Below, piece by piece: positions 11,838 through 13,481 of a stretch of DNA of 24,496 bases. The position numbers and the translations under genes were made by a program. The notes beneath the pieces were generated by a model, which made no database searches, had not been told where the DNA came from, and worked only from the letters and a program-made list of their open reading frames with translations. The stretch is from a virus. The DNA lies in the IMG/VR virus record IMGVR_UViG_3300048556_000354, positions 1-24,496 of that record; one strand, written 5' to 3'. How positions within the stretch are numbered: the first letter of the stretch is position 1; every line of letters begins with the position of its first letter.

Positions 11838-11864
11838 AAAAAAAGACCCCTTTGATGGGGGTCT
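11838..11864 (-). terminator. Intrinsic terminator, second of a tandem pair
   Basis: On the minus strand the stem AGACCCC (11858-11864) / GGGGTCT (11844-11850) is a perfect 7 bp with a 7-base loop and is followed by seven T (11838-11844). It backs up the terminator at 11885-11910, which already follows the 52-residue gene. Confidence 0.85.
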
Positions 11865-11884: not shown

Positions 11885-11910
11885 AAAAAGGCCAGCCATT
11901 CAGGCCGGCC
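11885..11910 (-). terminator. Intrinsic terminator after the 52-residue gene
   Basis: On the minus strand GGCCGGCC (11903-11910) pairs with GGCTGGCC (11890-11897), 8 bp with one G-T pair and a 5-base loop, followed by five T. It begins 12 bases after the stop of the 11922-12080 gene. Confidence 0.82.
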
Positions 11911-12116: not shown

Positions 12117-12144
12117 AAGAAGAAAGCCCAGCGCGTGGCCGGGC
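12117..12144 (-). terminator. Intrinsic terminator after the 62-residue membrane protein gene
   Basis: On the minus strand GCCCGGC (12138-12144) and GCTGGGC (12126-12132) form a 7-bp stem with one G-T pair and a 5-base loop, followed by TTTCTTCTTG. It begins 8 bases after the stop at 12152. Confidence 0.75.
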
Positions 12145-12151
12145 CTCTTGC

Positions 12152-12362: not shown

Positions 12363-12392
12363 AAAAGAATAAAAGAAGGGGACAAAGTCCCC
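12363..12392 (-). terminator. Intrinsic terminator after the 58-residue gene
   Basis: On the minus strand GGGGAC (12387-12392) and GTCCCC (12378-12383) pair perfectly around a 3-base loop and are followed by TTCTTTTATTCTTTTT. It begins 5 bases after the stop of the 12398 gene. The stem contains the same GGGGAC/GTCCCC core as the repeat cluster at 3556-3759. Confidence 0.82.
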
Positions 12393-12397
12393 CCTTA

Positions 12398-12618: not shown

Positions 12619-12747
12619 TGGGAGCGAGCTTGTGAGGCTCACAGGCTGCGAGGTCGCAGTCGTGAAGCTGCCAGGCTCACCCAAGCTGCGCAGGATTGGA
12701 GCCAATCGGCTCCCAAGTTGTCAAGGTCTTGAGGATGTAAAGTCCTC
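12619..12747 (-). ncRNA. Structured leader RNA or multi-hairpin element
   Basis: Inverted repeats follow one another: AGCTTGTGAG/CTCACAGGCT (12627-12647), CTGCGA/TCGCAG (12646-12659), GGAGCC/GGCTCC (12698-12713), TCAAG/CTTGA (12721-12732) and GAGGA/TCCTC (12731-12747). A long-range 7-bp pairing, TGGGAGC (12619-12625) with GCTCCCA (12709-12715), could instead close a multi-branched fold with GATTGG/CCAATC inside. AGGCTCAC occurs twice directly. From the promoter at 12817-12846 the minus transcript would carry all of this as a leader of about 235 bases before the ATG at 12574. A regulatory RNA, an origin element or a packaging site are open options. Confidence 0.5.
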
Positions 12748-12816
12748 TTGTTTATTATCCTAGTCGGTAGCACGGCGAATTGCGACTGCGTCGGCTGGAA
12801 ATAATTATTTCTTAAT

Positions 12817-12846
12817 ATTCTAGTATGTTACAGCTGGGTGTGACAA
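12817..12846 (-). promoter_or_regulatory. Strong minus-strand promoter candidate
   Basis: On the minus strand TTGTCA (12841-12846) and TAGAAT (12817-12822) each match the sigma-70 consensus at five of six positions and are 18 bases apart in an AT-rich setting. No other promoter-like site in the non-coding region is as good. It points into the tiny-gene array, through the multi-hairpin element. Confidence 0.7.
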
Positions 12847-12948: not shown

Positions 12949-12972
12949 AAAAAACCCCTTCTTGCGAAGAGG
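12949..12972 (-). terminator. Intrinsic terminator after the small-terminase candidate
   Basis: On the minus strand CCTCTTC (12966-12972) and GAAGGGG (12955-12961) pair over 7 bp with one T-G pair around a GCAA tetraloop, followed by six T (12949-12954). It begins 28 bases after the stop at 13001. Confidence 0.85.
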
Positions 12973-13000
12973 TAATTAAGTCGGCGGGGGGAGGGTGTTG

Positions 13001-13384
13001 TTAATCCTGTTTGTCTTGAATCTTGATGGTCAAATCAGGCGCTTGAATATTGACGATCTCGGTGGACTCACCAATCACGCGCCCAATCGAATCCAAAACC
13101 TGGCTTGCGGTCTGCAATTGCCCCTTCTTGATGGCCTGATTAAACAGTTTGGTACGCATGTGCTGAAGCCGCGCCAACATATTTTCGCGGTCAGACTTCC
13201 AATCTTCATCAACGAGAAGCTTTACTTCGGCCCAATCACGCCAAGCGGTATTGATGCTGACCTGTTCCCGTTCAACATGTTCATAAACAAGTGCCCTAGC
13301 GGACAAACCCTCTAGCTGCCGACGATATAAACGCCGCACACGATCTTCTTTTGCATTTGTGGTACGGCGTTCGTCTTGAGTCAT
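13001..13384 (-). CDS. terS: Candidate terminase small subunit
   Basis: 127 residues from ATG 13384 (MTQDERRTTNAKEDRVRRLY), with GGAAAAGG upstream; a longer start at 13405 is possible. The N-terminal half carries a helix-turn-helix (LYRRQLEGLSARALVYEHV, then INTAWRDWAEVKLLV). The second half holds long helices suited to oligomerisation (MLARLQHMRTKLFNQAIKKG, LQTASQVLDSIGRVIG), and the tail 'VNIQAPDLTIKIQDKQD' looks like the strand that contacts large terminase or portal. HTH, oligomerisation helices and tail are the usual small-terminase layout, and large terminase lies next door. It is divergent from terL, which is unusual. The name is from context and layout. Confidence 0.68.
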   Translation of the reverse strand: MTQDERRTTNAKEDRVRRLYRRQLEGLSARALVYEHVEREQVSINTAWRDWAEVKLLVDEDWKSDRENMLARLQHMRTKLFNQAIKKGQLQTASQVLDSIGRVIGESTEIVNIQAPDLTIKIQDKQD

Positions 13385-13481
13385 GCTTGATACGACCTTT
13401 TCCAAGATCTTAACTGGTAGAAAGGCTTCTAGCCCCTATTGAAGGGGGGCAGGGGTCAAGAATCTGTGTAATGTGGCATTT
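13385..13481. promoter_or_regulatory. Divergent control region between terS-like and terL genes
   Basis: 97 bp. A plus-strand promoter candidate is TTGATA (13387-13392), 17 bases, TTAACT (13410-13415), -35 good and -10 weak. A hairpin CCCCT (13433-13437) / AGGGG (13443-13447) lies just before terL. The position between the two terminase genes also suits a packaging recognition site. None of this is proven. Confidence 0.35.

Follow-up and report, generated by a model that had tools for sequence, protein, structure and literature searches.

Many uncultured marine viruses, whose hosts are probably picocyanobacteria, probably start one operon with a folded RNA of 97 nucleotides, usually placed just after a boxA. 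The 97-nt RNA element itself is well supported by comparison among relatives; how it works we infer from the signals around it. Its usual position after a host-type boxA suggests that these viruses borrow the read-through machinery of their hosts.

The window analysed here is the whole of virus record IMGVR_UViG_3300048556_000354, 24,496 bases in length. Portal, major head and large-terminase (TerL) genes are found on its plus strand; tiny genes, a helicase and a primase-like gene are found on its minus strand. A comparison with 50,697 phage records gave no nucleotide match to the window, and no tRNA or tmRNA was found in it. By TerL, the nearest named phage is Cyanophage S-2L (about 43% identity), from which the 97-nt element is absent. 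The gene upstream of the leader (13001-13405) is presumably a small terminase, a role read from its position beside TerL alone. This TerS-like protein has no match among named phages and belongs to no PHROG family; its match to the ribbon-helix-helix family RHH_8 is sub-threshold (E 0.004). The sample consists of 80 viral contigs with TerL relatives and further sets retrieved with the TerS-like protein; the comparison set is the 180 non-redundant regions that follow the TerS-like gene in about 180 viral relatives. Contigs L002, L006, L012, L043, L068 and L078 stop inside or just past the TerS-like gene, which may reflect assembly breaks at a variable leader or a DNA end.

The 97-nt element and its closing stem

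The element is closed by a 7-bp stem, P1, and its length is constant at 97 nt while its interior diverges. In the 180 regions, 79 TG-anchored arm pairs measure 97 nt end to end, against at most nine at any other length; looser criteria give a 97-nt pair in 109 of the 180 regions, while the other lengths between 80 and 115 each count 22-48. Alignment of 27 divergent copies requires no gaps. A fixed length that is not divisible by 3, combined with unrelated interiors, argues against protein coding across the element. It is unusual, and open to testing, for an RNA to keep its length fixed while its interior is free to vary.

The arms are mostly TGGGAGC, TGAGAGC, TGATAGC or TGACAGC, with the variable pairs GG/CC, AG/CT, AT/AT and AC/GT. 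The two variable positions have a matching partner in 63 of 63 non-redundant elements, across the four arm types; since detection required complementarity, some of this matching follows from the method, while the length peak is not so affected. Nine changes in the P1 arms can be mapped on the TerS tree. Four of the eight P1 pairs have changed on both sides, none of 500 shuffles reaches the covariation score, and the covariation is lost when the partner is slid by one column. The initial annotation, made from the window alone, had described a dense multi-hairpin element and named covariation among homologues as one of its checks; such covariation is found in the P1 arms. The hairpins and repeats that it listed are also all present: the P1 arms, the adjoining GGAGCC/GGCTCC pairing, and AGGCTCAC at 12635 and 12673. 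The exact length of 97 nt and the upstream boxA are additions to it.

Within the element interior, CCGGGT at a fixed place is the only strongly conserved sequence; otherwise a weak 3' hairpin recurs. Conserved interior helices at fixed columns were considered and rejected, with just a weak P3 and apical GGG/CC pairings found.

A covariance model of the element (R1) matches the minus strand of the window at 12619-12715 with 55.1 bits (E 3e-10), the window being one of its training sequences. On 81 viral sources the model gives 34 matches, one per source and each in the same orientation as the TerS-like gene; the strong ones are mostly training sequences or their kin. Matches outside the training set occur in L024, L026, L029, L036 and L050, with other lengths among them. 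The more distant L039-L049 and L051-L081 have no match, and there are none in a 383 kb control made up mostly of cyanobacterial rRNA loci and the S-2L region. Of the clade's 11 long relative genomes, 10 carry exactly one copy, and among the 81 viral sources the element is confined to the clade with this TerS type. At the gathering threshold, the window and nine relatives match no Rfam family, including EAR, the glutamine riboswitches, manA, wcaG and PhotoRC; the window leader has no Rfam match at E<=1.

Folding is stronger than expected on both strands, but carries less weight than the recurrence of the closing stem and the 97-nt length in relatives, which is far above chance. For the 129-nt region, z against dinucleotide shuffles is -2.2 on the minus strand and -3.4 on the plus strand; the means for relatives are -2.69 and -2.34 respectively, and z for the interior is -1.6. 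Consensus folds by subfamily give a mixed strand preference (family B folds far better on plus), and P1 wobble pairs and A-C mismatches number 10 to 9. Folding and wobble were set aside as a basis for strand choice; they do not single out the minus strand.

Order of signals around the leader

In relatives, a terminator comes first, then a promoter, then (in those that have them) the hairpin and boxA, then the 97-nt element and, after a further 30-45 nt or so, the ATG; features of the window are listed in Table 1. A terminator lies between the end of the TerS-like gene and the element in 58 of 59 relatives. Of 60 relatives, 43 have a -10-like hexamer in the 140 nt before the element; among background windows the count is 34 of 368. 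The promoter proposed in the initial annotation, TTGTCA-18-TAGAAT, is close to consensus, but the nearer TAGGAT is the box at the conserved distance of 41 nt; a -10-like box at that distance is also found in L306, L340, L349 and L360, the closest relatives of the window. The conserved element and the order of signals support the same annotation's proposal of a structured minus-strand 5' leader before the tiny-gene array.

Table 1. Features of the leader region of the window, listed in minus-strand order
Feature	Position	Strand	Basis or remark
Small-terminase-like (TerS-like) gene	13001..13405	-	Upstream of leader; adjoins TerL; inverted relative to TerL
Intrinsic terminator after TerS-like gene	12954..12973	-	Terminator scan; separates gene from leader transcription unit
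Candidate upstream promoter TTGTCA-18-TAGAAT	12817..12846	-	Consensus match alone, 10/12
-10-like box TAGGAT	12757..12762	-	41 nt upstream of element
Small hairpin GAGGACTTTACATCCTC, GAGGAC..GTCCTC	12731..12747	-	Expected 5' end; directly before boxA, boxB-like position
boxA ACCTTGACAACT	12716..12727	-	Abuts element; same as core of picocyanobacterial rRNA-spacer boxA
97-nt structured leader element	12619..12715	-	Covariance-model match, gapless alignment, pair counts
P1 5' arm TGGGAGC	12709..12715	-	Pair counts, arm comparison
GGG, element positions 34-36 (consensus CCGGGT)	12680..12682	-	Alignment
P1 3' arm GCTCCCA	12619..12625	-	Pair counts, arm comparison
First tiny ORF, 58 aa	12398..12574	-	ATG 44 nt after element; no Pfam or PHROG family
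Terminator-like hairpin and T-run, tiny genes 1/2	12376..12394	-	Next ATG 12340, about 35 nt on
Terminator-like hairpin, tiny genes 2/3	12123..12147	-	Next ATG 12080, about 42 nt on
Terminator-like hairpin after tiny gene 3	11890..11910	-	Terminator scan
Second terminator after tiny gene 3	11844..11864	-	Promoter-like site next, 11826-11797

The core of the window boxA is identical over 12 nt to the picocyanobacterial rRNA boxA, and the pattern CCTNGACAAY has this boxA as its single match in the whole window. The boxA of cyanobacterial rRNA spacers was expected to read GAACCTTGAAAACTGCATAG. Matches in a scan with GAACCTNGAMAACTGCATAG are almost all to cyanobacterial rRNA spacers; a 16S 3' end is located within 1.2 kb upstream in 65 of 80 tested loci, and the picocyanobacterial form is GAACCTTGACAACTGCATAG. 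This 20-mer is independently named, as primer Picocya-boxA-R, as the box A for antitermination in every known marine picocyanobacterium (PMC9769826).

Within 80 nt upstream of the element, a 10/10 match to the boxA core is present in 36 of 63 copies but in only 1 of 464 background windows; for cores with 9 or 10 matches, the counts are 43 of 63 and 12 of 464. Several relatives match the boxA at 18 of 18 positions, and some are identical over ACCTTGAMAACTGCATAG. About a third of elements (families E, H and I, L004 and L287) have no recognisable boxA; consequently, boxA is not obligatory, and the element must have a role that is independent of it. In L011, L013, L022 and L214, which keep the 97-nt element, the boxA is apparently split by an inserted hairpin (CCTTGAGTCCGGC..GCCGGGATGAATA).

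A full rRNA-type boxA (ACCTNGAMAACTGCATAG) is also found in other viral groups, which do not carry the 97-nt element; in several it follows a hairpin or promoter-like sequence. These groups comprise L399, L410, L416, L420, L438 and L456; L409, L419 and L442; L417, L432, L433, L445 and L452; and L396, L402 and L406. Leaders with a boxA may therefore be commoner among viruses than this clade alone. Exact boxA matches in L393, L404, L428, L436 and others lie in apparent coding sequence with similar flanks, and were excluded from support.

The hairpin directly before boxA occurs in relatives as the variant GAAGAC..TCTTC; hairpins at this position exceed the threshold in 58% of cases, compared with 14% in shuffles. 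Further upstream, before the promoter, L016 and the similar L026 and L028 have repeated palindromes like TGAGAATGATTATCATTCTC, which resemble a Fur box; tandem TTGAGAGTGATTCTCAGTTGCAATAG repeats take their place in L031.

Downstream of the element, the first ATG (of an ORF of at least 30 codons) is 28-48 nt away in 44 of 61 cases. Where the element comes after the first ORF, as in L019, L275 and L280, the next ATG is again 31-41 nt away. The gene downstream of the element varies among viruses. In many relatives (L010, L015, L017, L023, L037 and L038) the first such gene codes for a tiny protein, apparently membrane-spanning, with a conserved HSGTQxYVRVVR-like tail at its end. On the operon strand terminators number 1.82 per kb; the opposite strand has 0.81 per kb, and shuffles have 0.34. 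In the window, tiny genes 2 and 3 start about 35-42 nt past terminators, which leaves little space for separate promoters.

Possible roles of the leader

We give about an even chance to the reading that the region is an operon leader in which boxA recruits NusB/S10 for processive antitermination, in the manner of nut or put. Transcription would begin near 12750 and proceed through the hairpin, the boxA, the P1-closed 97-nt RNA and a CA-rich stretch to the first start codon. The boxA, either copied from the host rRNA boxA or converged on it, would draw host NusB-S10 and the remaining Nus factors to RNA polymerase. The 97-nt RNA would dock either on the polymerase so modified or on a viral factor, and this complex would read through the intrinsic terminators between the tiny genes, as with lambda nut or HK022 put. 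Promoter use, host, Nus recruitment, polymerase contact and read-through are all presumed here from sequence signals.

Several lines of evidence favour processive antitermination. NusB is over the cut-off in seven of seven picocyanobacterial (candidate host) genomes and Rho in none of the seven; read-through in such hosts would therefore concern intrinsic terminators. For the antitermination complex of the E. coli rrn operons, boxA is both required and sufficient (PMC10250234), and HK022 put demonstrates that leader RNA alone can render polymerase terminator-resistant (PMC9378689). Together with the start of genes 2 and 3 close to terminators, these points argue for antitermination. Against it count the elements that lack a boxA, strand tests that fail to single out the minus strand, the want of interior helices kept at fixed columns, and the deviating shape of the window's subfamily. 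Among the subset of minus-strand proteins scanned, no antiterminator family or N-like protein is recognised; N proteins are poorly conserved. Alternatively, the terminator-like hairpins may stabilise the mRNA or be sites of its processing.

That the leader acts in translation or mRNA stability, shielding the 5' end from RNases and presenting an unstructured CA-rich initiation region with boxA as an accessory, seems rather unlikely. The tight spacing between element and ATG, preserved where the element follows the first ORF, is consistent with such a role; so is the -10 box just 6-17 nt upstream in L016, L021, L294, L295 and L004, which would put the stem at the very 5' end. However, neither the strict boxA motif in most relatives nor the order of hairpin and boxA in a terminator-rich operon is explained in this way, and an exact length of 97 nt is needless for simple protection. 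It is more doubtful still that the element is a DNA packaging site (pac/cos), or another nucleoprotein site, for the adjacent small terminase, with inverted TGRNAGC half-sites at 97-bp spacing. Constant spacing and matched arms would suit two protein half-sites, strand tests are neutral, and both the single copy in 10 of 11 long relatives and the restriction to one TerS type are in keeping with packaging. A packaging site nevertheless fits less well than a minus-strand leader: the element is always in a presumed transcribed region, after a promoter-like site and usually a boxA; the downstream ATG spacing is maintained when the element follows the first ORF; the interior has a stronger fold than its shuffles, something that DNA half-sites would not require; and long contigs span the element, whose position in them varies.

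The initial annotation had also suggested a switching RNA, in which the local GGAGCC/GGCTCC hairpin excludes the closing stem. Such a switch is confined to the subfamily of the window (the window, L340, L349, L360 and L306), whose shape differs from that of other subfamilies and in which alone the local hairpin is favoured over P1, by about 1-3 kcal/mol (3.2 for the GGAGCC/GGCTCC hairpin). A family-wide switch was rejected: P1 forms in the minimum-energy structure of 56 of the 63 relatives, and local pairing of its 5' arm is no commoner than in shuffled interiors. As neither pairing contains a terminator or start codon, the downstream gene varies and no Rfam family matches, a riboswitch-like response to a ligand or protein is highly improbable. 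Least credible is a plus-strand small RNA ending at the hairpin at 12731-12747; the plus-strand fold of the window (z -3.4) and a terminator-like site on that strand speak for it, but the T-run after the hairpin is weak, the same hairpin reads on the minus strand as the pre-boxA hairpin, and no plus-strand promoter was found upstream of the element.

Relation to known systems

Among the open-access papers searched, none was found to describe boxA or antitermination leaders in cyanophages. It is tentatively proposed, at somewhat less than even confidence, that the leader represents a class of antitermination RNA new among phages, in which a rigid element of 97 nt works with a copy of the host rRNA boxA and serves a widespread clade of uncultured viruses for read-through of intrinsic terminators in Rho-less hosts. 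If so, a widespread clade of uncultured viruses hijacks the rRNA antitermination machinery of picocyanobacteria by means of an undescribed RNA, and nut/put-type control reaches beyond the phages of well-studied bacteria. The leader would then offer a way into the study of transcription termination in cyanobacteria that lack Rho, and boxA with the 97-nt element would be a sequence marker for host assignment and for mapping operon starts.

The EAR/epsC RNA of Bacillales, at roughly 100 nt, is close in size to the 97-nt element. It is likewise a leader RNA, with reported antitermination activity (PMC2864571); it differs in hosts and genes, and the 97-nt element has no Rfam match. HK022 put shares an early-leader RNA of fixed architecture with proposed cis action on RNA polymerase. 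In contrast to the closed 97 nt and usual boxA found here, put is about 70 nt long, with two stem-loops and no dedicated trans-acting proteins (PMC9378689).

Lambda nut (boxA, boxB and N) is also a phage leader in which boxA and then RNA structure precede a terminator-containing operon. Its short boxB is 3' of boxA, whereas here a 97-nt multi-helix closed element is 3' and hairpins are 5' of boxA; nut also works with the N protein, and an N-like protein is not recognised among the minus-strand proteins scanned. The cyanobacterial rRNA leader and 16S-23S spacer (boxB-boxA-boxC) differ in that the phage has no downstream rRNA and the 97-nt element is absent from the cyanobacterial rRNA loci searched; the likeness lies in an identical boxA core with a hairpin directly upstream.
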